IMG/VR virus record: IMGVR_UViG_3300044994_000322
Location: 1 to 32,242 of that record
Strand: one strand, 5' to 3'
From: a virus
DNA: 32,242 nt
Position 1 is the stretch's first letter. Each line of letters begins with the position of its first letter. The notes beneath the pieces are model-generated. The model saw only the letters and a program-made list of their open reading frames with translations, ran no database searches and was not told the DNA's origin. The translations under genes and the position numbers were made by a program. This document shows, piece by piece, positions 4,830 through 31,799 of this stretch.

Positions 4830-6425
4830 ATGGTAACACAATCGACGCAGGCTCGGCAAATGACCGAAAAAGAATGGCAATCGCTGGTGGATGAGCGTTA
4901 CCGGGAGTATGTGGCTAAACAGGGGGGCATCGATCCCCTTGTTACAGCTTGCCAAGAAGCTATGTTGGCCCTCAACGGTGTCGGGCAGGCGAATTATTGG
5001 TGGGGGGATCCTCGGGAAAAGATCTACGATTCCCAGAACTCCCTTTTGCAAACGGCTTACCCTGCTACGCTGTCCCCCAATCGGGGCATGGGGGAAGACC
5101 TGCCCGTCCAGATCACCGAAACAGAATTGATGTGGCTTCGGAACATTTCGAGGGTTCTTTGTGCCACAAACGAATATGCAGCCTCGGGGCTTGAAAACCG
5201 AATCAATTACATAATCGGGGAAGGGCTGCAATACAAAGTGAAGGCAATCGAAGGGGCTCCGAATCTGGGCAGCCTTGTCAGAGATGCCCAAGCCCTGATA
5301 GACCTTTTTTGCGAGATGGTCGATCTTTCTGACATCGAGGAAGAGTGGCAGGTTAGAAACGACATCGACGGGGAAAGCTTCCTTCGGCTTTTTCCACAAT
5401 CTGACGGTTCAATGAAGGTAAGGTTTGTCGAACCGGAATGGGTGCGGTCGGTCAACGGGAATTCCCCCCAATGCTCATACGGGATCGAAACCGACCCTGA
5501 TGATGTCCAAACCGTTCTACGATATTGGGTCTGCCCCGACCCCTTTACAAACGCACCCCCCGAACCTATCGATCCTGCCTTTATTATGCACAGCAAAATT
5601 CGGGTAATGAGGTCATCCAAACGGGGCAGGCCCCTATTCTATCCCGTCTTCACGAATCTAAAAAGGATCGAGGCCCTCGGCAAATCGATATCAGCTATCG
5701 CAGTGGCAAGAGCAAAAATTGCTATGATTCGGCGAATGAAGAACGCGACCCAAGACGCTGGGAATGCCCTCAAAGAAAAGGTTACTTCGGTTACAGCCAC
5801 CGACCCGATCACGGGCAAAGAACGTAACATCGAGGAATTTAAGGACGGCTCGATTGTAAACGCTAATGATTTGATCGACTATGAGTTCCCTTCTGCCAAT
5901 ATCTCGGCTGGTGAATTTATCGCAGTTTTCCAGCAAGAGCTTCGGGGGGTGGCAGCATCCCTAAATATGCCCGAATGGATGCTAACCTCCAATAGCGAGA
6001 ATATGGGGGCTTACACATCTTCTTTGGTATCCGAAGCCCCGATGAACCGAAGTATAAAACGCTGGCAGAAAAGGGCAAAAAACTTTTTTGCACGCCGAAG
6101 GATAAACCCCAATATGTCCCTCCTTTGGCGATACCTTTGCCATTGTGCTGCCCTCGGGATGGTCGATCAAAAGTATTTTCGTTGGATCGAGATTGAAGCT
6201 ACTTGCCCGTCACTGGAAACGCGAGATCTCGATAGACAGGCCAATCGCCACAAAACCTATTTTGATATTGGTGTGATGACAAAGCCCGAGATAAGGGCAG
6301 AAATTGGGCTTGATCCAAACGCAGTTTTCCAAAAAGCATTGGAGGGGCAGACCGAAAAAACCGATACCCAAAATGGTCAAGCTGGAGATGATTCGGGGGA
6401 CGACCCTTTCGAGTCCGCCGACTAA
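4830..6425 (+). CDS. Portal protein
   Basis: A 531-residue protein, one base after the terL stop. The order of genes (terS, terL, portal, protease, capsid) and sequence features identify it: an N-terminal region with NRINYIIGEGLQYKV, a central DPDDVQTVLRYWV / HSKIRVMRSSKRGRPLFYPV segment typical of lambda-type portals, and a C-terminal acidic tail. Twelve copies form the ring through which DNA is packaged and to which the tail attaches. Signs of a fold family (lambda gpB-like or SPP1-like) cannot be settled by eye. Confidence 0.88.
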   Translation: MVTQSTQARQMTEKEWQSLVDERYREYVAKQGGIDPLVTACQEAMLALNGVGQANYWWGDPREKIYDSQNSLLQTAYPATLSPNRGMGEDLPVQITETELMWLRNISRVLCATNEYAASGLENRINYIIGEGLQYKVKAIEGAPNLGSLVRDAQALIDLFCEMVDLSDIEEEWQVRNDIDGESFLRLFPQSDGSMKVRFVEPEWVRSVNGNSPQCSYGIETDPDDVQTVLRYWVCPDPFTNAPPEPIDPAFIMHSKIRVMRSSKRGRPLFYPVFTNLKRIEALGKSISAIAVARAKIAMIRRMKNATQDAGNALKEKVTSVTATDPITGKERNIEEFKDGSIVNANDLIDYEFPSANISAGEFIAVFQQELRGVAASLNMPEWMLTSNSENMGAYTSSLVSEAPMNRSIKRWQKRAKNFFARRRINPNMSLLWRYLCHCAALGMVDQKYFRWIEIEATCPSLETRDLDRQANRHKTYFDIGVMTKPEIRAEIGLDPNAVFQKALEGQTEKTDTQNGQAGDDSGDDPFESAD

Positions 6426-8078: not shown

Positions 8079-9350
8079 ATGTTCGTTAAAGATTCGGGTC
8101 GCACCATTGGTGAAAAGGTGCGAGAAGTAATGAAAAGGCCAGATATGCCTTTTCATATTAAGGTTGAAAGAACCGTCGAAGCCTTCAACAAAGGCAAATT
8201 CGAGAAGTCTTTTCAAGAAATGTCTTTGGCAGGATTTGCTGAGGGGCTTCTGGGCTCCAATTGGCAGATGTACCTGTTGCAATTTTCGCACGGGGCCAAC
8301 TCGGGGATGATGGATAAGAACGGGCAGACCTATTGGGGGCGGGCGCAAGAATCGGTCGTCGGTATCGATCCCTCAGCCTTTACCAACATTACGGGGCAGC
8401 TTCTCGTTCGGGAAGTCAAGCGAGGGTATGAAGACCCCAGCTTTATCGGGGACAAGCTTGTCCGCACAATTCAAGAACCCTCGGTGGCTGCAATCCTCGG
8501 GGAATTGAAAGTTCCGGGGGTCAGCAAGGCGATTAACTTGCCCACCAAAGTTGGCCCCGGCACGGCTTATCCTCAAACGAAAATCGTTGAGGATTGGATC
8601 AACCTGCCAGCTATCGCAAAATACGGGCAGATCCTCGCTATTACGATTGAAGCCCTTGTGCAAGACCGCACCGGGGGGGATCTCCAAAACCAAGCCATGA
8701 CGATTGGTTACCAGCAAGCGCTTCGCAAGGAGCTTGAGATCCTGAACGCAGTGATGGGGCTTACCAACACCTACAATTGGAAGGGGACGAATTACAATAC
8801 GTATCTAACCACTGGCAATTGGGTGAACAAACGGACGGGTGTATCTGTCACGCCGGGAAGCTGGAATAGTAACAACATCTTCAAACAGCAAATGCTTTTC
8901 TCGAAGATTCGAGACCCTTACACCAACAATGTAATCAACATTCCATTGTCGGAAATGCGTTTGCTTTACCCCCAACAAAGCGATTGGGCGTTCCGCTCGG
9001 CTTTGGATGTGACAAGCGTTTCAACGGGGCAAACAGCTACGTCTCCCTCGATTCGGTCGGAGGGACGAAACCCCTTGCAGGAGATCCCACCTGCATACAC
9101 AAGCCCGTATATCTGGCAAATTCTGACCGATGCTGGGTATACCGAAAGTCAAATTGAATCGATGTGGTGGCTGGGTATCTTCAACCGAGCTTTTGGGTAT
9201 CGGGAATGGTTCCCGATCAGCTATAGTTACGCACCAGCCGGAGCCGAGGCTGAGTTCCGTCAGGATATCGTTTATCAAGTGAAGTGCCACGAAGCTGGTG
9301 TAGCTGCGGTTTTGGAACCTCGCTATACGTCTCAAAGTATCGATACCTAA
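8079..9350 (+). CDS. Major capsid protein
   Basis: A 423-residue protein. It follows the protease and decoration genes and is the largest abundant-type structural gene of the head module. It opens with a charged helical N-terminus (KDSGRTIGEKVREVMKRPDM), as HK97-fold capsid proteins with a delta-like domain often do; a protease cut site could lie within the first 100 residues. The ATG is preceded by GGGAG at a spacing of 9. A strong palindrome/terminator follows at 9379-9402, which would favour high expression of this gene relative to those downstream. Confidence 0.85.
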   Translation: MFVKDSGRTIGEKVREVMKRPDMPFHIKVERTVEAFNKGKFEKSFQEMSLAGFAEGLLGSNWQMYLLQFSHGANSGMMDKNGQTYWGRAQESVVGIDPSAFTNITGQLLVREVKRGYEDPSFIGDKLVRTIQEPSVAAILGELKVPGVSKAINLPTKVGPGTAYPQTKIVEDWINLPAIAKYGQILAITIEALVQDRTGGDLQNQAMTIGYQQALRKELEILNAVMGLTNTYNWKGTNYNTYLTTGNWVNKRTGVSVTPGSWNSNNIFKQQMLFSKIRDPYTNNVINIPLSEMRLLYPQQSDWAFRSALDVTSVSTGQTATSPSIRSEGRNPLQEIPPAYTSPYIWQILTDAGYTESQIESMWWLGIFNRAFGYREWFPISYSYAPAGAEAEFRQDIVYQVKCHEAGVAAVLEPRYTSQSIDT

Positions 9351-9807: not shown

Positions 9808-9841
9808 GCCGCCCCAGATATCAGCCTAAAAAGGGTAGCAA

Positions 9842-25678: not shown

Positions 25679-26357
25679 TTTCTTTTCTCCATTGTTGAAT
25701 TCTCTGCCAGAATTTCTCGACTTCGGGCAGGACTTGCTCCTTAAATACCGATTCGTTTTTCCTGATCTTTATAAGGGCCAATTGATCCCGTTCGGAAAAC
25801 CTTTTGAGATTGTCTGAGTAGGAGCAATACCAGCACTCGTCCAAGCCCGTGACGTGGAGCTGCCATTGAACTTGGGGCATGTAAATAAGGGGAGGCTGCC
25901 CCATTAAAGCAAGCTGGTGTTTCTGCCAATCCAAGCACTTAATTGCCAAAAGGATCGGCTGCCCTTTGTGAAGCCCGATCCCGTCAAGGCTGGCCCTTTT
26001 CCAACGGTCGGCTTCCCCGATCATCTGGCAGCAAGCTGCATAAAATTGGATATCGTATCTTTGCTCGGTGAGGAATCGGGCAGTCGGTTCAAGCCCTGCC
26101 CCCCGTCGCATTGCAAAGGATGATTCTGTCTCCCAGCCGGGCTCGCTGGTTTTTTGCCGAAAGATCTTTTCTGCCCCTCGGTCATCGTAAGGCCAATCTT
26201 TCCCGAAATAAATTGGGCCAATATCAGACCCCCCGATACCCCAGCCACGCCAAAGATACCAGTCCCGGCTTCGCTGATCCAATCGCACAAGCTTGCAGCG
26301 ATCCCGAAGGGGGGCCATGCTAAAGATCGATTCTAGGGGGTCGGTGTAATTGCTCAT
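25665..26357 (-). CDS. YqaJ-type exonuclease (lambda exo-like) with altered active site
   Basis: A 230-residue protein matching the YqaJ viral recombinase fold: RGWGIGGSDIGPI (38-50), MRRGAGLEPTAR (83-94), RASLDGIG (121-128, metal-binding Asp125), AIKC (138-141) and YMPQVQWQLHVTG (159-171). The normal E-x-K motif here is Ala138-Ile-Lys140, codon GCA where GAA is expected (25944-25946), so a metal-binding Glu seems lost. It would have resected DNA ends for recombination. It may be inactive, or another acidic residue may substitute. Confidence 0.75.
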   Translation of the reverse strand: MSNYTDPLESIFSMAPLRDRCKLVRLDQRSRDWYLWRGWGIGGSDIGPIYFGKDWPYDDRGAEKIFRQKTSEPGWETESSFAMRRGAGLEPTARFLTEQRYDIQFYAACCQMIGEADRWKRASLDGIGLHKGQPILLAIKCLDWQKHQLALMGQPPLIYMPQVQWQLHVTGLDECWYCSYSDNLKRFSERDQLALIKIRKNESVFKEQVLPEVEKFWQRIQQWRKENGAS

Positions 26358-26403
26358 AAACCCCTCTCCGGTTTCGCACCGGCTGCCCCCGAAGGGGAGG
26401 TTT
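26358..26403 (-). ncRNA. Weak tRNA-like leader element of the YqaJ gene
   Basis: Minus strand: AAACC (26399-26403) pairs with GGTTT (26358-26362), enclosing a CCCC-TTC-GGGG hairpin (26387-26397) and a 4-bp CCGG arm with the 7-base loop TGCGAAA. It has the layout of the stronger tRNA-like elements further upstream but not the T-loop consensus, and its 3' side contains the ribosome site GAGAGGGG of the gene. Possibly a simple structured leader. Confidence 0.25.
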
Positions 26404-26408
26404 CGTTC

Positions 26409-26438
26409 GGGCTGGAAAACAGATGGTAAAATCTGCCC
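26409..26438 (-). other. Stem-loop between early genes
   Basis: GGGC/GCCC (26409-26412, 26435-26438) encloses CAGAT/ATCTG (26420-26424, 26431-26435). On the minus strand the inner stem is followed by TTTT, so weak termination is possible. It lies in the 140-bp gap between two early genes, in which I see no coding sequence. Confidence 0.35.
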
Positions 26439-26497
26439 GCTAAACAGAGGGGGGATAAATGATCCTGATTCGGGGCAGGATCGACCCCCGAAGCTGG

Positions 26498-27178
26498 TTA
26501 AGCTTCGACGTTTTGGTTGGCTTCGGCTTCGTTCATGTCCCGTTGGTATCGCAGCTCATCCCGTTTGAGGGCTTCCTTGTGGATGCGAAGGAAGGCACTG
26601 TAAAAGTGATTCCCCGTGTCCTTTTCATCCTGCAATACGGGGCAGCCTGCTTGAACGGCTTTAATATGCTGATCCCCAACAGACCGAAAGAAGTCTCGGC
26701 TTTCTCGCTCTCGCATTTTTTCAACGGGAATGCAGCCGATTTTGGAAAGCTGGAAGCAATGAAAGAGGGCCAGCTTCGTGTCCCGAAGCAAAAATACAAC
26801 CTCCTCGGGCAGATCGATTTCGGCTTTGGCAAGGGCCTGATAAATCTGGGAAAGGCAGCCAGCCGTTACCCCGAAGGAAATTGTAGCATTCACCATCAAT
26901 TCCTTGTGGGTATCTTCGGGGTAATCGGGAAGCATTTGAACCTGTTGCCGAACATTTTCAAAGCCCCACATTTCGGGGGGCATCGGAACCTCAGATTTGG
27001 CAGCCTGAATACACATGTGGGCCTGCCCGTTGTACTTCCTGTCTTTTACCAGATCATCCCAAGAGAAGTCCTTGTTCTCGGGAACATCGTCCATGCTGAT
27101 CGTTAGCTCGGACTTTTGCGTACCGATTTCTTTGGGGCCTTCTGGCCACGCATTGTTTGAAAAATACATTCTTGCCAT
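26498..27178 (-). CDS. Hypothetical early protein next to the YqaJ nuclease
   Basis: A 226-residue protein starting MARMYFSNNAWPEG; GGAG lies 9 bp before ATG 27178. The first 100 residues are mixed with several Cys/Met (QAHMCIQAAKSEVPMPPEMW), the second half is helical and charged. Genes next to a YqaJ-type exonuclease often encode a single-strand annealing protein or a DNA-binding partner, but I cannot recognise such a family here. It is preceded by the tRNA-like element at 27198-27247. Confidence 0.6.
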   Translation of the reverse strand: MARMYFSNNAWPEGPKEIGTQKSELTISMDDVPENKDFSWDDLVKDRKYNGQAHMCIQAAKSEVPMPPEMWGFENVRQQVQMLPDYPEDTHKELMVNATISFGVTAGCLSQIYQALAKAEIDLPEEVVFLLRDTKLALFHCFQLSKIGCIPVEKMRERESRDFFRSVGDQHIKAVQAGCPVLQDEKDTGNHFYSAFLRIHKEALKRDELRYQRDMNEAEANQNVEA

Positions 27179-27197
27179 CGATCTATCTCCGTTTATA

Positions 27198-27247
27198 GTA
27201 ACATAGGGGATCGAACCCTACCCCAGCCTTTGCTGTTACGGCTGGGG
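27198..27247 (-). ncRNA. tRNA-like element 1 (T-arm plus pseudoknot)
   Basis: Minus strand: a T-arm TAGGG-TTCGATC-CCCTA (27204-27220) is enclosed by GTAACA/TGTTAC (27234-27239 with 27198-27203), like an acceptor stem, with only 13 bases between. Those same GTAACA bases also lie in the loop of an 8-bp hairpin CCCCAGCC/GGCTGGGG (27240-27247 with 27221-27228), so a pseudoknot can form. The T-loop has all conserved bases. There is no room for D or anticodon arms. It ends 20 bp upstream of the gene at 27178 and overlaps the stop codon of the gene before it. Confidence 0.5.
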
Positions 27248-27529
27248 GCTTCTAGCGACTTCGCTGAGGCTGGGGCTGGCTTTGCCATTACTCATCTTCT
27301 CCTCTTCTCCTTTCTGGGGCTTTCCTTTTCGGCTGATCTTGGGCAGCCGTTTACCTTTTTGCAGGTTGCAAAGGGTAGACCAGATTTCTTGGTTGGTATA
27401 TCCGCTCGGGCATCGTTTCCGGAGCCGAAAGGCAATACTCGTAAAAGATCGAGTGTAGGGTAGCTGATCGAGGGGAACCCCCATATCCGAGTACAGCTTG
27501 ACCAGAATTTGAATATCACTTTCTTTCAT
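27236..27529 (-). CDS. Hypothetical early protein
   Basis: A 97-residue protein. I start at ATG 27529, which has GGAGG 6 bp upstream; the frame is open to 27625 but that part coincides with a tRNA-like element. Residues 1-65 look like a small folded domain (SDIQILVKLYSDMGVPLDQL, then GYTNQEIWSTLCNLQKGKRLP), of a kind I have seen beside phage and bacterial DNA genes without known function. The last 30 residues are Lys/Glu/Ser-rich. Confidence 0.6.
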   Translation of the reverse strand: MKESDIQILVKLYSDMGVPLDQLPYTRSFTSIAFRLRKRCPSGYTNQEIWSTLCNLQKGKRLPKISRKGKPQKGEEEKMSNGKASPSLSEVARSPQP

Positions 27530-27551
27530 AATGAACCTCCTATTGTCATCT

Positions 27552-27613
27552 AAGCGTTTGCTCCGGACTCGAACCAGATCCTCTCGCGAGAAGATACCAA
27601 ACCTACCACGCTT
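27552..27613 (-). ncRNA. tRNA-like element 2
   Basis: Minus strand: closing stem AAGCG/CGCTT plus TTTG/CAAA with a 7-base bulge (27552-27560 with 27598-27613), a 7-bp hairpin ATCTTCT-CGCG-AGAGGAT (27578-27595), then a T-arm TCTGG-TTCGAGT-CCGGA (27562-27578). The T-loop is fully canonical. With 62 bases and one middle hairpin it is too small for a normal tRNA. It ends 22 bp before ATG 27529, just upstream of GGAGG. Confidence 0.5.
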
Positions 27614-27686
27614 CAATTCGGCCATGCTTATTCAAGCATGGAAATGATATATCGTTGTGCTTTGATGCACCAGATTAAGTAACAGA

Positions 27687-27884
27687 TCACGGCTTTTCGT
27701 CGCGGATGATTGCCCCGTTGGGGCCTGCCTTTAATACAATTTTGGGGCCTTTTTTTAATCCCTGATAAATCCAGACTGCAAGATCACGAAGGGCATCAAT
27801 GGCTTTATCTCGGATTTCAATATCTTGAATATCTTCGGATATACCATCCTCTAATTCATTGAAAATCTTTTGATAATCTACCAT
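27687..27884 (-). CDS. Small hypothetical protein
   Basis: A 65-residue acidic-to-neutral helical protein: MVDYQKIFNELEDGISEDIQ, then IRDKAIDALRDLAVWIYQGL, and a short C-terminal basic/Gly part. AAGGA lies 6 bp before ATG 27884. Nothing recognised. The stretch 27614-27686 between it and element 2 carries no gene. Confidence 0.55.
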   Translation of the reverse strand: MVDYQKIFNELEDGISEDIQDIEIRDKAIDALRDLAVWIYQGLKKGPKIVLKAGPNGAIIRDEKP

Positions 27885-27915
27885 TGATGTTCCTTTGTTT
27901 GATTGGGCTGCCCGA

Positions 27916-28344
27916 TTATCTTAATCGGATCGGCTGGGGGCAATTCCCGTTAGGGCAGCTTTCTTGATTCGGATACACGACCCAGCTTCCCGAGGAGCCT
28001 TGATTGGGATAAGGGAAGCCGGGGGTGCGATTGAGATAAAAGCTTTCGACCCTTTGGGCTTCGGTCTGTCTTGGATCGATCCCAACGGACTCAGGGCTTG
28101 GCAGAATGATCGGGGCAGAAACAGGCCCCGAAGAAATTGCCACAGCTTGGGTAGGCCATTGGCATTGGGTAGTTACTCGGCTGCCCCCTGATCCACCGCA
28201 AGGCTGGCAGAATCGAACAGGCCCACCGCACGATCCCGATTGCAACGGCTGGCAGGGGAAACACCGGAAAAAGAAAGCTTCGGCTTTCGCTGGGGCAAAA
28301 ACAAAAGCCCCCAATCCGAGAAGGGCAAACAACAATTTTTTCAT
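27916..28344 (-). CDS. Secreted Cys/Pro-rich protein in the early operon
   Basis: A 142-residue protein with a clear signal peptide (MKKLLFALLGLGAFVFAPAKAEA cut after AEA), then a Cys-rich section (FFRCFPCQPLQSGSCGGPVR, FCQPCGGSGG) with eight or more Cys and a Pro/Asn-rich end. AAGGAG is 8 bp before ATG 28344, which overlaps the upstream stop as ATGA. An exported Cys-rich protein in a replication region is unexpected; it could act in superinfection exclusion or at the surface (inference). Similar Cys- and Pro-rich exported proteins are frequent in planctomycetes. Confidence 0.65.
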   Translation of the reverse strand: MKKLLFALLGLGAFVFAPAKAEAFFFRCFPCQPLQSGSCGGPVRFCQPCGGSGGSRVTTQCQWPTQAVAISSGPVSAPIILPSPESVGIDPRQTEAQRVESFYLNRTPGFPYPNQGSSGSWVVYPNQESCPNGNCPQPIRLR

Positions 28345-28733
28345 ACTACCAACTCCTTTTTTTGGGGTTTCGGGATCTCAAAAACATTGAACTGGTAAAG
28401 ATCGATCAAAGGCTTATCTGGGCTGCCAACGATCAGGATTCCCCCGAAAGTTTTGGGCAGATTGTAAGCCCCTGAAAGGTCAGCACCAACCACCTTTACA
28501 GTGTGCTGCAAGCCAAGCCCGAAGCTGAATTGATTGTTGGCCCTTCGGAGGGTATCCGTTCGAAGGTCAGACCATTTCATCAATATACAGCCGAGCGGAT
28601 TGTTGGCTTCGGCTTCGATCAGGGTGCGAGCAAAGCTGGGGCTGCAAACCTTGATCGATTGTTCGAACCCTGCCCTGATTTTTTCATCGGGGAGGGACAG
28701 CTTTATTTCTGAATTCACCAAAACGACCAGCAT
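28341..28733 (-). CDS. Hypothetical early protein
   Basis: A 130-residue protein. I start at ATG 28733 with GGAG 5 bp upstream. A longer frame to 28862 exists but its first part coincides with tRNA-like element 3 and has no ribosome site. It reads MLVVLVNSEIKLSLPDEKIR and later GGILIVGSPDKPLIDLYQFN; mixed alpha/beta. It resembles no family I can name. The stop overlaps the next start (ATGA). Confidence 0.55.
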   Translation of the reverse strand: MLVVLVNSEIKLSLPDEKIRAGFEQSIKVCSPSFARTLIEAEANNPLGCILMKWSDLRTDTLRRANNQFSFGLGLQHTVKVVGADLSGAYNLPKTFGGILIVGSPDKPLIDLYQFNVFEIPKPQKKELVV

Positions 28734-28750
28734 AAAAACTCCACAGGCGA

Positions 28751-28841
28751 AACGTCGTTCCGGAGTCGAACCGGAAAAGGCCCCCACATCCCAGATCAGG
28801 ATACACGATCTACTTCTCTTTGCCTTGCCCCCACCGACGTT
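28751..28841 (-). ncRNA. tRNA-like element 3
   Basis: Minus strand: acceptor-like stem AACGTCG/CGACGTT (28835-28841 with 28751-28757), T-arm TTCCGG-TTCGACT-CCGGAA (28758-28776), and a long middle arm closed by AAGGC/GCCTT (28822-28826 with 28777-28781) with an inner AGATC/GATCT stem. The T-arm matches that of bacterial tRNA-Cys almost exactly. The 91-base length would allow a tRNA with a long arm, but I find no anticodon loop with U33 and no D arm. It ends 17 bp before ATG 28733. Confidence 0.5.
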
Positions 28842-28893
28842 CTCGATATCCGAGGACACCACCTTTGGCTAAAAAGCCAATAGATTGTTTCAA

Positions 28894-30423
28894 TTAGACG
28901 GGCAGGGGTTTTTCGACCTCTGCGACCAATCGTGCTACGGCTGCCTTGCTCATCGGCTCAAGCCAATCGTACACCTTCTGAGCGATGCCCGGCTCCGTTT
29001 GTTCCCAAGAATGCCCGAGCAATCGGGTCGGCTCGATCTTTGCCAATTGCAGCCAGCTTATCCCCTTCGCTGCTGCCTTGATCCCCAGCCGTGAACGGAT
29101 ATCCACAGCACCGTAAAGGTCTACGGCTTCCTTCGGTTCCGAAGGCTCCCATGCGTCCCCTTTTTCGTCGTCCCCTTCCCCTTCGGCTGGCTCATTGCTG
29201 GGGACATGCGTATTAGGTAAAGGGACTTCCCCGTATTCGCCCTCCCGTTGCTGGGCATTTTTTGCCTTAGGCTCGGGCTCGGGCTCGTTTATTGGCCCTT
29301 CGCAAACATAGTGGTCGGGGCTGGGGTCGATGAGCTTAGTTGCACGCAAGGCAGTGTAAATGGCCTGCCCTTCGGATAGAACAAGCTCCTCGGGCTTACG
29401 CACATCCCTGCCAATCACCCGGCTCATCATGGCCCAAGCCCAACCTTTTGGATATTGCAGCCGTTTCAATTCCCCGACGATTTTGTCCCAATCGGCTGGG
29501 GTGATCTTTGTCTTATCTGGGGCAGGGGCAGGGGCAGGGGCAGGGGCAGGGGCAGGGGCAGGGGCAGGGGCAGGGGCAGGTTGCGTATTCACGGCTGGCC
29601 CCATATTTGGATTTCTGTTTTCTGTTTGATTCTGGGGGGCCTGATCCAACGAAGGCTTCGCTTTGGCTTTGGCGATTGCCGAAGCAATGTTGTTCCAACA
29701 TTCTTTTGCTGACGATCCTGCCCGAATAACCTCGGGCAAGCCGTAACGATTCTTGGCGACCACTGCCAGATTAGTCGATGTCCTGACGATCCTGCCCGAT
29801 AAAGACTTCACTTTGTCGTCCTTGATCTCGCTCTGGTATCCCCCGAACAACATTGCATCTGCCCATTTGTGGGTAAGCTTGTAAAGCTCTTCCACCCCTT
29901 CGGGCTTATACTGGTCGTAGTCTTGGGCTTCGGGATTGTTGACCGTTTTGATCTTGGTGTGCGATAGCAAAAGGATCGTCATACGCCTTTGTTTCCTGAT
30001 TTGATCCAAGACCCGTAAGAAGCCTGCCCATTCGTCCACGCAAGATTTTGCCCCCTGCCCGTAGCTGTTAAATTTGGCTGGGGAATTATCGTAGTATTCG
30101 GCTTGAACGTGCTGGCAGAGGAGTCTTTCAGCTCCGTTGCTGGTATCGATGACCAAAGTCTTGAAAGTATGCTCATCCCGAAGCACTGAGTAGATGTTGT
30201 TCATCAATTGTTTCCAGCTTTTTGCATCGTCTGGAAAATGTGCTGTCTCGGGCACTCGCTTGGCATCAATTAGTTCGAGAAGGCCCGTTTCCCCCTCGGT
30301 CATCACAAACACGGGGTCTTTAGCGAAGGCCCCGAGCGAGGATTTCCCCCAGCCTTCGGGGGCATAAAAGTAAATTCGGGGGGGCAGGCTTTCAGTTGTG
30401 GTAACAACATTTAGCGGTGGCAT
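28894..30423 (-). CDS. P-loop NTPase (Sak4/RecA-like recombination ATPase)
   Basis: A 509-residue protein. ATG 30423 has GGAG 6 bp upstream; TTG 30435 is a poorer start. Residues 10-220 form a RecA-type ATPase: Walker A APEGWGKSS (21-29), FVMTEGETGL, Walker B TLVIDTSNG (about 88-96), and LLLSHTKI (sensor-like). Similar proteins in phages act as recombination mediators (Sak4) beside lambda exo-like nucleases. A linker of ten Ala-Pro units then leads to a C-terminal region with acidic stretches and a helical WLQLAKIEPTRLLG end domain. It is the largest early gene. Confidence 0.75.
   Translation of the reverse strand: MPPLNVVTTTESLPPRIYFYAPEGWGKSSLGAFAKDPVFVMTEGETGLLELIDAKRVPETAHFPDDAKSWKQLMNNIYSVLRDEHTFKTLVIDTSNGAERLLCQHVQAEYYDNSPAKFNSYGQGAKSCVDEWAGFLRVLDQIRKQRRMTILLLSHTKIKTVNNPEAQDYDQYKPEGVEELYKLTHKWADAMLFGGYQSEIKDDKVKSLSGRIVRTSTNLAVVAKNRYGLPEVIRAGSSAKECWNNIASAIAKAKAKPSLDQAPQNQTENRNPNMGPAVNTQPAPAPAPAPAPAPAPAPAPAPDKTKITPADWDKIVGELKRLQYPKGWAWAMMSRVIGRDVRKPEELVLSEGQAIYTALRATKLIDPSPDHYVCEGPINEPEPEPKAKNAQQREGEYGEVPLPNTHVPSNEPAEGEGDDEKGDAWEPSEPKEAVDLYGAVDIRSRLGIKAAAKGISWLQLAKIEPTRLLGHSWEQTEPGIAQKVYDWLEPMSKAAVARLVAEVEKPLPV
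29519..29580. repeat. (GGGGCA)n hexanucleotide repeat, ten copies
   Basis: Ten perfect GGGGCA units plus GG on the plus strand, coding for an Ala-Pro linker on the minus strand. The plus strand can form G-quadruplexes. Shorter relatives occur at 119-139 and around 700. In-frame hexamer slippage would change linker length without breaking the gene. Confidence 0.95.
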
Positions 30424-30566
30424 TTCTGGCTCCAAGAATGCAGGAATAGGGTAAAGGTAACAAGCCCCAAGCCAATCAATCCAAAGATGACAAAGGGGTC
30501 AGCCGTCTGGGTCTTGCAGGCGATGCCCGTCAAGATTGCCAGCACTAAGGCTGCAATAAATCTCAT
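30411..30566 (-). CDS. 51-residue small membrane protein
   Basis: MRFIAALVLAILTGIACKTQ, then TADPFVIFGLIGLGLVTFTL and FLHSWSQKCHR: two hydrophobic segments separated by a short polar loop with a Cys that weakly fits a lipobox (GIAC). GGAGAG is 8 bp before ATG 30566, and the stop overlaps the start of the NTPase gene by 13 bases. Could be a small holin-like or signal-anchored protein; unknown. Confidence 0.5.
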   Translation of the reverse strand: MRFIAALVLAILTGIACKTQTADPFVIFGLIGLGLVTFTLFLHSWSQKCHR

Positions 30567-30604
30567 TTCAACTCTCTCCGATGTTGAAAGCCTTTTTCAG
30601 GCAC

Positions 30605-30662
30605 TTCCCGGCTGGGGATCGAACCCAGCAAGGGCCAGCCTTTGCAGGCTTACCCTCGGGAA
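30605..30662 (-). ncRNA. tRNA-like element 4
   Basis: Minus strand: closing stem TTCCCG/CGGGAA (30657-30662 with 30605-30610), a two-part hairpin AGGG/CCCT and AGCC/GGCT with loop TGCAAA (30631-30656), then a T-arm GCTGGG-TTCGATC-CCCAGC (30611-30629). All stems are perfect. The loop TGCAAA resembles the tRNA-Cys anticodon loop, but there is no separate D arm and the total is 58 bases. It lies 38 bp upstream of ATG 30566. No CCA follows. Confidence 0.55.
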
Positions 30663-30778
30663 AAAAACGGGTGATTGGATACTAACCAAAATCCTTTCTG
30701 GCATCGATTCCCCCGGCGACATCCTTGTCGATCACCCTTTTCAATCTCTACTAAATCGACTTTGTAGCGTCAATACTA

Positions 30779-30796
30779 AAATCCGCTATTTAGAAT
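30779..30796 (-). promoter_or_regulatory. Degenerate operator half-site
   Basis: ATCCGCTATT at 30781-30790 preserves one half of the operator just after the gene at 30786-31022. A TTGACG is found downstream at about 30770 on the minus strand with only weak -10 candidates. It could mark a further regulated start before element 4. The rest of 30663-30785 shows nothing I can support. Confidence 0.3.
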
Positions 30797-31022
30797 TTTC
30801 CTCTTGGAAGGTGCAGAAAATTCTTTGATCCTGCCCCCCGATCTTGCAAGCAATCCAGCCTTTCCAGATACTTACGCAACCATAATCGTTTACAAGGCTG
30901 ACCCCTTCGAGCTTCGCTTGCTCTGCCCCTATTCGCTTGCAGATTGCCCTAAGAGCATTAGGTCGGCTTTTGCATCGGGTCGAGATAAATTCTTTGTTGA
31001 ATCGGATTGATAGCTCTACCAT
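30786..31022 (-). CDS. Small hypothetical protein
   Basis: A 78-residue basic protein: MVELSIRFNKEFISTRCKSR, NALRAICKRIGAEQAKLEGV, then WKGWIACKIGGQDQRIFCTF. Four Cys residues. No ribosome site is visible before ATG 31022; a CCCTTAAGGG palindrome and a TGGTA/TACCA hairpin precede it. Function unknown. Confidence 0.5.
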   Translation of the reverse strand: MVELSIRFNKEFISTRCKSRPNALRAICKRIGAEQAKLEGVSLVNDYGCVSIWKGWIACKIGGQDQRIFCTFQEENSK

Positions 31023-31067
31023 TCTGGTATTGTACCAATCCCTTAAGGGAAAAGGGGCAGCGAAAGG

Positions 31068-31799
31068 TTAGTAAGATCGGATGAGACGGGTCACGGCTAC
31101 AATGTTTCCGTTTTCCCTGATTGCCCCATCATTAGGCCCTGTTCCCGGGTAAAAAATATCAGATCGGCTGGCCCCAATCCTCGAAGCAACAATGGCTGAG
31201 ACGATATAAACCTTTCCAGCTTCTGGGGCAGGAATTCCTTCGACCTCGCCGAAAGTTGTTCCTGCCCAAAAGAATCCTGTCAAAGCTGCCCCCGAGGTTG
31301 TGGCGACTCGTGCAACGATCCCAGACGGTTCAACGATGATCTTTTCTTCCCCCGACAAAATAACGATCTTGTGGGGGGTCAGATTGACCAGCTCATAATT
31401 TTGCGGAACAGGGGGCTTTGAAGCTTGGGCTTCCTTCACGAAAGCTTCAAGGTCATCAAGGCGTTTTGCTTGATCGGGATACGATTGTTGCAAGATTTTA
31501 CGGGCATTCTCAAGACTGACTTTCAGCCTAGCTCGCACTTCTTCCCAACTATTGCAATCATCCCCCCAAGTCTTGTGCAGGGGAGAAAGCAATTCGATTG
31601 CCCGAACCCCTTCGCACAAAAGAAGTTTGTAATCAGTAAATGACCACTTTCCGTTTTTTGTGTATTGCTCGGATGATATCGCATACCACCCAGCTTCGTT
31701 GCTGCCCGTAAAGGCAAGTACCTCGTTTCCTTTGGCGAACCAAAGATGAGGACGACGGTTGCCTGCTTGCAAACCGTTGTTGTAATTGTAAATTTCCAT
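31068..31799 (-). CDS. Two-domain hypothetical protein with NLTPHK domain
   Basis: A 243-residue protein from ATG 31799 with AGGAG 4 bp upstream (an ATG at 31817 would place the ribosome site inside the gene). The N-terminal 140 residues are unassigned and end in a helical part. From about residue 140 the pattern ELVNLTPHKIVILSG, VEPSGIVARVATTSG, EVEGIPAPEAGKVYIVSAIV, and RSDIFYPGTGPND belongs to a small domain that occurs alone in many phages and bacteria with unknown role. The leader contains two interlocking inverted repeats (31809-31860), so its translation may be regulated. Confidence 0.6.
   Translation of the reverse strand: MEIYNYNNGLQAGNRRPHLWFAKGNEVLAFTGSNEAGWYAISSEQYTKNGKWSFTDYKLLLCEGVRAIELLSPLHKTWGDDCNSWEEVRARLKVSLENARKILQQSYPDQAKRLDDLEAFVKEAQASKPPVPQNYELVNLTPHKIVILSGEEKIIVEPSGIVARVATTSGAALTGFFWAGTTFGEVEGIPAPEAGKVYIVSAIVASRIGASRSDIFYPGTGPNDGAIRENGNIVAVTRLIRSY

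Follow-up and report, generated by a model that had tools for sequence, protein, structure and literature searches.

tRNA-Like Elements Ahead of Minus-Strand Genes in a Phage Contig and Their Putative Role in mRNA Punctuation

RESULTS

Four tRNA-like elements in the minus-strand gene block

The window analyzed here is the whole of a 32,242-bp linear phage contig (IMG/VR virus record IMGVR_UViG_3300044994_000322), which carries terminase, portal, and tape measure genes on its plus strand and a minus-strand block that encodes a DUF3987 helicase, a RecE/YqaJ exonuclease, a Sak4-like AAA protein, and a Holliday-junction resolvase. We found four minus-strand elements, E1 to E4, located in gaps, in which a T-arm with the tRNA consensus G-TTCGANN-C and a stem of 5 to 6 bp is stacked on an acceptor-like closing stem of 6 to 8 bp; E2 fits this architecture only with a 4-nt offset. 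All four lie 17 to 38 nt ahead of a sense start codon, the same distances that were given in a preliminary description made from the sequence alone. The T-arms and closing stems of that description were likewise recovered, and reinspection agreed with its statement that none of the elements encodes CCA or has a normal pair of D and anticodon arms.

E1 (27198..27239, minus strand) is closed by a 6-bp stem, GTAACA/TGTTAC, and contains a 13-nt linker, GCAAAGGCTGGGG, with GG. Its T-arm, TAGGG-TTCGATC-CCCTA (27220-27204), stands 19 nt before the ATG at 27178 of a 226-amino-acid (226-aa) open reading frame (ORF). E2 (27552..27613, minus strand) precedes the ATG at 27529 (97-aa ORF) and consists of the T-arm TCTGG-TTCGAGT-CCGGA (27578-27562), an inner hairpin (TCTCGCGAGA), and the closing stem AAGCGT/ACGCTT, which stands at a 4-nt offset from the T-arm. 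In E3 (28750..28842, minus strand), ahead of the ATG at 28733 (130-aa ORF), an 8-bp acceptor that includes one G-U pair (GAACGTCG/CGACGTTT) is combined with a 6-bp T-arm (TTCCGG-TTCGACT-CCGGAA) and a long inner arm (AAGGC/GCCTT plus AGATC..GATCT). E4 (30604..30663, minus strand) has the acceptor TTTCCCG/CGGGAAG and the T-arm GCTGGG-TTCGATC-CCCAGC, and its inner part is a single long arm, AGGGU-A-AGCCU(GCAA)AGGCU-G-GCCCU; the downstream gene, with its ATG at 30566, is a 51-aa minus-strand ORF ahead of the Sak4-like gene. On inspection, E1 lacks an anticodon arm, and the inner arms of E2 to E4 lack a normal 7-nt anticodon loop.

Both strands of the window were scanned for a 5-bp stem, the loop TTCRANY, and a second 5-bp stem with a tRNA-like flank. 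Strict T-arms with such a flank occurred only at 30623, 28770, 27573, and 27215, all on the minus strand. The sole other match, at 1955 on the minus strand, has an AT-rich, weak stem and a poor closing stem, in agreement with the earlier claim that a consensus T-arm with a closing stem is found nowhere else in the window. Chance expectation was estimated from 1,000 dinucleotide shuffles of the window, with G-TTCRANN-C and full pairing as the strict T-arm: the window has 4 versus a shuffle mean of 0.178 (Poisson P of ~4e-5). T-arms with a closing stem of at least 6 bp numbered 3 versus 0.035 in shuffles (Poisson P of ~7e-6), E2 falling outside the allowed offset and not being among the 3.

A candidate fifth element, E5 (26358..26403, minus strand), has the closing stem AAACCTC/GGGGTTT and a variant T-loop in CCGG-TGCGAAA-CCGG; its 3' strand adjoins the start codon (ATG at 26357) of the gene for the RecE-like exonuclease. 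About 0.1 objects of this type are expected from shuffles. With E5 included, all five gaps of at least 55 nt between 26.3 and 30.8 kb contain an element.

The predicted fold of E4 (z score of −3.6) has the acceptor UUCCCG/CGGGAA, a 10-bp arm with a GCAA loop, and a 6-bp T-stem stacked on the acceptor. The E1 region folds with a z score of −2.4, and the E1 linker contains GGCTGGGG; a competing hairpin, CCCCAGCC/GGCTGGGG, shuts out the closing stem in the minimum free energy (MFE) structure. E2 is the weakest of the four because its MFE structure lacks the T-arm. We consider the four-element observation in the window confirmed.

It is very improbable, in our estimation, that these are hairpins formed by chance, in a genome where CCCCAGCC-like words abound, or that they are attachment-site remnants of host tRNA genes. 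The motifs are short and the stability of E2 and E3 is ordinary, but the shuffle P value of ~1e-5, the sense orientation before genes, and the phage-wide covarying class described below all argue otherwise, and an attachment site is expected to consist of the 3' half of a host tRNA, in a single copy beside an integrase, not of four different closed elements. Attachment-site remnants were rejected on the grounds that there are several different closed elements and that no integrase was seen beside them.

Ordinary or intron-bearing tRNAs, the outcome that the preliminary description had named as contrary to its proposal, are ruled out by negative ARAGORN and Rfam results in the window. ARAGORN called no tRNA gene there, nor did a genome search of the window; the Rfam tRNA model (RF00005) gave no match at its gathering threshold and none at an E value of ≤5 for 26200-31200. 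No Rfam family scored above its gathering threshold at the window elements, and transfer-messenger RNA (tmRNA) and T-box elements, being without an Rfam match, are ruled out too.

Other structured features lie nearby. A short hairpin, GCCT-GAAAA-AGGC (30583..30603, minus strand), directly follows E4, ahead of the Shine-Dalgarno (SD) sequence, and a terminator-like structured segment (30661..30737, minus strand), made of GGGTGAT..ATCACCC plus G and a T7 run, lies directly upstream of E4. In this segment (30737-30661), GGGTGAT..ATCACCC encloses CGAC-AAGGAT-GTCG, and a separate leader RNA or a terminator is possible. The leader of a 249-aa ORF (31860-31806, minus strand) has a stem, TGGATAGTT/AACTATCCA (hairpin z score of −3.3), and a loop, TTTTTGTCATTTA, complementary to the downstream TAAATGACAAAAA, which could form a pseudoknot or switch near the SD sequence. 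The Sak4-like protein has an alanine/proline-rich linker whose coding sequence consists of tandem CCCCTG repeats (29580-29510, minus strand).

Conservation and turnover in near relatives

The near relatives of the window phage are three IMG/VR contigs (3300045911_000549, 3300045921_000596, and 3300044941_000314) with genes that are 88 to 99% identical; a search for annotated phage relatives of the window helicase or terminase gave distant matches only. E1 and E2 show no differences in L001, the sole relative that covers them, and E5 is identical there as well. The inner arm of E3 in L001, AAAGGC/GCCTTT plus AAGATCGT..ACGATCTT, differs in length and sequence and keeps its pairing.

The leader that holds E4 has diverged nearly completely in the relatives except for the T-arm and the SD sequence and start. 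The slot is occupied there by a full cloverleaf, which has D-like and anticodon-like arms and whose acceptor (GAATAGG/CCTATTC) differs from that of E4 and is paired throughout. ARAGORN called this cloverleaf tRNA-Val(aac), its anticodon loop (GAAACAA) lacks U33, and the L001 copy gained no support from any Rfam tRNA model. At the E4 slot, then, a tRNA-like shape persists while the sequence turns over. Stem comparison among the window relatives is confined to E4, where the acceptor is replaced, and E3, where the inner arm changes, with one other allele each.

The surroundings of E4 also change in L001. After the element, another hairpin, TTTCCCC-AAGA-GGGGAAA, stands in place of GCCT-GAAAA-AGGC; in the upstream segment, inspection showed the stem GGGGTGG/CCACCCC, with compensatory changes and the loop motif AAGGAY retained.

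A phage-wide class of anticodon-less elements

Two pattern scans identified, among the matches listed, dozens of similar elements without an anticodon arm, here called minis, in unrelated phages; several contigs carry several each. Pattern 1, run on IMG/VR, required a T-arm followed by TTT, an SD sequence, and ATG. Pattern 2, run on viral contigs, required GCTGGTG, 6 to 11 nt, and GGTTCGANTCC, with no selection on pairing, acceptor, or gene position. All the counts of phage minis that follow are among the matches listed.

Of 376 strict T-arms at the loci matched by two SD-ATG patterns, 97 lay outside ARAGORN tRNAs, and a closing stem of at least 6 bp was present in 65 of these 97, versus about one-fifth of shuffled T-arms. 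Pattern 2 gave 97 distinct non-tRNA matches. All three unselected T-stem pairs were formed in 78% of them versus 11% with shuffled partners, and an acceptor of at least 6 bp was in place in 47% versus 6% in shuffles (maximum, 14%). The individual pairs 49-65, 50-64, and 51-63 were formed in 78, 82, and 87 of 93 matches, respectively, with all pair types represented. The stems of the phage-wide mini class thus covary.

The mini consensus consists of an acceptor of 6 to 9 bp, a GG linker of ~9 to 16 nt (mostly GCTGGTG), and a T-arm of 5 to 6 bp. GG was present in 29 of 32 linkers found without CTGGTG selection. Acceptors of 7 bp were followed by a discriminator-like A (30/51) and then T (35/51), while CCA occurred near the mini end only once in 51, as in CCA-less RNase Z substrates. 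Minis outside called ORFs mostly face a same-strand gene (26 do and 3 do not). The position of the minis is less firmly shown than their structure, because 31 of 61 fall within an ORF according to a crude gene caller.

A MAFFT alignment of the mixed mini set shifted the acceptor register, and a covariance model, R1 (acceptor-CTGGTG-T-arm, 45 nt), was built on a smaller in-register set. It has members in many contigs, with E values down to 1e-13; these members were preselected for pairing, and their 100% paired cells are not independent evidence, unlike the pattern 2 pairing counts. E1 was also picked up by the mini scan. The idea of a mini tRNA-like element is not peculiar to the window phage or its operon. 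Rfam 15, searched at eight loci with minis, matched a single ordinary tRNA and nothing else, and blastn found no annotated relatives of contigs L158, L160, L163, and L214.

The cloverleaf at the E4 slot of the relatives, together with the intact tRNAs that stand upstream of genes in many phages of the first pattern set, raises the possibility that the elements are relics of phage tRNA genes that have lost their D and anticodon arms and persist in leaders by chance. We regard this explanation as improbable. Compensatory changes have maintained the acceptor and T-arm pairing while the remainder was lost, the mini form recurs across unrelated phages with the same GG linker, and the relatives' cloverleaf has the odd anticodon loop GAAACAA, without U33, and no Rfam tRNA score. 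A lack of function is disfavored; an origin from tRNA is possible.

One phage contig, L163, carries two continuous 12-bp acceptor/T minihelices (at 9837 and 9389, minus strand) with one bulged T and compensatory differences between them, and a tRNA-Ser-like element at 8439.

Cultured cyanopodoviruses and cellular genomes

Minis are also present in cultured phages. The T7-like cyanophage S-RIP2 has one with a D-like hairpin (GG loop) at 39660-39613 on the minus strand, with a hairpin and then a small early gene after it, and NATL1A-7 has one with the loop TGCAAGT; the same scan found none in P-SSP7. In S-SBP1 and S45-C4, the orthologous slot contains tRNA-like folds that show compensatory changes, and a degenerate tRNA-like fold with the loop TTTGAGT occupies it in S-TIP37. 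In S-CBP3, S-CBP4, S04-C24, and S-RIP1, the slot holds a bulged stem (ACACTGAG-hairpin-CTCTGTAG type), identified by folding in S-RIP1 and S-CBP3 and by inspection in S-CBP4 and S04-C24. S-RIP2 itself has a bulged hairpin of that type in each of the next two gaps. Of all the observations, this slot-for-slot exchange of a tRNA-like fold and a bulged hairpin hints most strongly at a function in RNA processing. The S-RIP2 stems (L411, at 39330 and 38940 on the minus strand), ACACT(G/C)AG-hairpin-CTGTAG between early genes, resemble RNase III-type sites.

Among 119 pattern matches from cellular genomes, the mini structure was present in 16, including haloarchaeal matches and a Treponema L25 leader. 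The latter, at 5407-5452 of a Treponema saccharophilum contig (L328), is a chromosomal mini directly upstream of the gene for ribosomal protein L25, which is followed by TilS. Four haloarchaeal contigs (L294, L318, L351, and L355) carry minis, and the one in L318 lies between two DUF1102 genes, close to a virion-like protein.

DISCUSSION

We postulate that the window elements punctuate phage mRNA and are putative cleavage sites of host RNase P and/or RNase Z, a reading to which we assign a probability slightly above one-half (about 0.52). What supports it is observed directly: the sequence, the pairing, the location and orientation of the elements, and the covariation of the phage-wide class. 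We infer that an elbow forms and that the elements are recognized and cut, with effects on mRNA stability or translation. The preliminary description had proposed mini tRNA-like elements as processing signals or for translational control of early mRNA; their action as processing or leader signals is the best-supported reading, given the cloverleaf at the relatives' E4 slot, the covarying class, and the slot exchange in cyanopodoviruses; the RNase P and RNase Z cuts are its conjectural part.

The elements would act as tRNA mimics in the gene leaders of a polycistronic phage transcript, presenting a T-arm stacked on an acceptor-like stem without a decoding arm. The usual GG linker or small hairpin could dock in the T-loop, as G18-G19 of the tRNA D-loop do. 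Host RNase P may cut at the 5' side and RNase Z at the 3' side, just past the acceptor. Cutting would release the message upstream, and the gene downstream would acquire a new 5' end, a few to ~40 nt before the start region and often with a hairpin at its head. The elements would thereby serve as punctuation, the role of RNase III sites in T7.

Several observations weigh against this proposal. The folding stability of E2 and E3 is no better than that of shuffles, and E1 to E4 lack an encoded CCA, which helps RNase P. Model R1 matches only the T-arm at E1 to E4 (8.6 to 10.8 bits; E values of 1.2 to 4.7), which rules out the window elements as members of the narrow CTGGTG family; what they have in common with the minis is therefore the architecture and not the narrow consensus. 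A hairpin follows the acceptor in 30 of 61 listed minis versus 11 in shuffles, while control stretches from the same contigs gave 25/61 and 18/60. A post-acceptor hairpin is not clearly above these controls, and we rejected it as an obligatory part and kept it as a frequent one only. Finally, phage contig L214, which has an integrase, carries an array of ~13 minis (2847-1440, minus strand) with no ORFs between them, and gene punctuation is therefore not the sole use.

Most minis of the L214 array are followed by a hairpin, two are continuous minihelices with TGCAAAT loops, and L268 has a homologous array of at least five elements. Such arrays, ORF-free in L214, suggest that the elements could be freed as small tRNA-like RNAs, or could free the segments between them, with a job of their own as small RNAs or as decoys for tRNA-directed defenses or processing enzymes. 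As an account of the elements, this appears quite unlikely: the window and most other contigs have single elements before SD/start sites, and most elements, being without an anticodon arm, are not decoys for anticodon nucleases.

The location 17 to 38 nt before starts, with hairpins nearby, would also suit a leader structure that is not cleaved. The fold might block attack at the 5' end or by exonucleases, or recruit a tRNA-binding factor (EF-Tu, TruB, or ribosomal sites), and so tune translation of the next gene or mRNA stability; in E5, the SD-like 3' strand lies within the closing stem. We consider this unlikely, since mere stabilizers need no tRNA-specific T-loop, GG linker, or CCA-less A-U trailer, and the bulged-hairpin replacement in the same slot suits processing better.

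Extending the punctuation proposal beyond the window, we speculate, at slightly less than even odds, that undescribed and very common tRNA-elbow mimics without an anticodon (acceptor, GG linker, and T-arm) in phages and a few bacterial and haloarchaeal genomes recruit the universal tRNA-end enzymes of the host, by which viral polycistronic RNA is cut, and that arrays in some phages release noncoding RNAs. If so, many phages would shape their own mRNAs with RNase P and RNase Z, the one set of RNA-processing enzymes that a host could scarcely dispense with, using a signal of ~50 nt that standard annotation has overlooked. The elements would form an evolutionary bridge from phage tRNA genes to regulatory RNA and a natural counterpart to synthetic tRNA-spaced polycistronic RNAs. 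Punctuation is directly testable because cultured cyanophages carry the element.

Comparison with known systems

Both tRNA-like structures and punctuation by tRNAs are already known; the widespread anticodon-less mini in phage mRNA leaders is absent from Rfam 15, and we found no description of phage elements of this kind in open PubMed Central full texts, a search whose coverage excludes closed journals and preprints. Mitochondrial tRNA punctuation, in which RNase P and RNase Z excise the units, likewise places tRNA-shaped units between genes, before the next start, and cleavage of the phage units would similarly free both messages. The phage units differ from the mitochondrial tRNAs in having neither decoding arms nor CCA and in their variable architecture, and their cleavage is putative.

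The mascRNA/menRNA family (MALAT1 and MEN-beta; RF01684) is also a nondecoding tRNA-like fold within a longer RNA and is cut by RNase P. RNase Z cuts these RNAs too. They form the 3' end of eukaryotic long noncoding RNAs, unlike the phage elements, and the L001 copy of E1 scores 17.9 bits (E value of 5) against the family. Plant-virus tRNA-like structures (Tymo_tRNA-like; RF00233) are another case of viral tRNA mimicry, to which the L001 E4 cloverleaf is weakly similar (20.6 bits; gathering score, 40); unlike the phage elements, they are 3' terminal, aminoacylatable, and found in RNA viruses.

Phage tRNA genes have the T-arm and acceptor in common with the window elements, and some intact tRNAs precede genes too; unlike these, the window elements have no decodable anticodon arm and are not called by ARAGORN or Rfam. 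The minimal RNase P model substrates AT1 and pMini3bpUG, composed of an acceptor, T-stem, and T-loop, are cut by bacterial RNase P RNA (PMC11143913). Their minimal anatomy is the same as that of the phage elements, although they are laboratory constructs with CCA; in the phage elements, CCA is absent and a linker is present. RNase III sites of the T7 type, which are long bulged hairpins without a T-loop, differ in structure from the T-arm-bearing window elements and presumably in the enzyme involved. They likewise lie between early genes of one phage transcript, and it is a bulged hairpin that is found in the cyanopodovirus slot.

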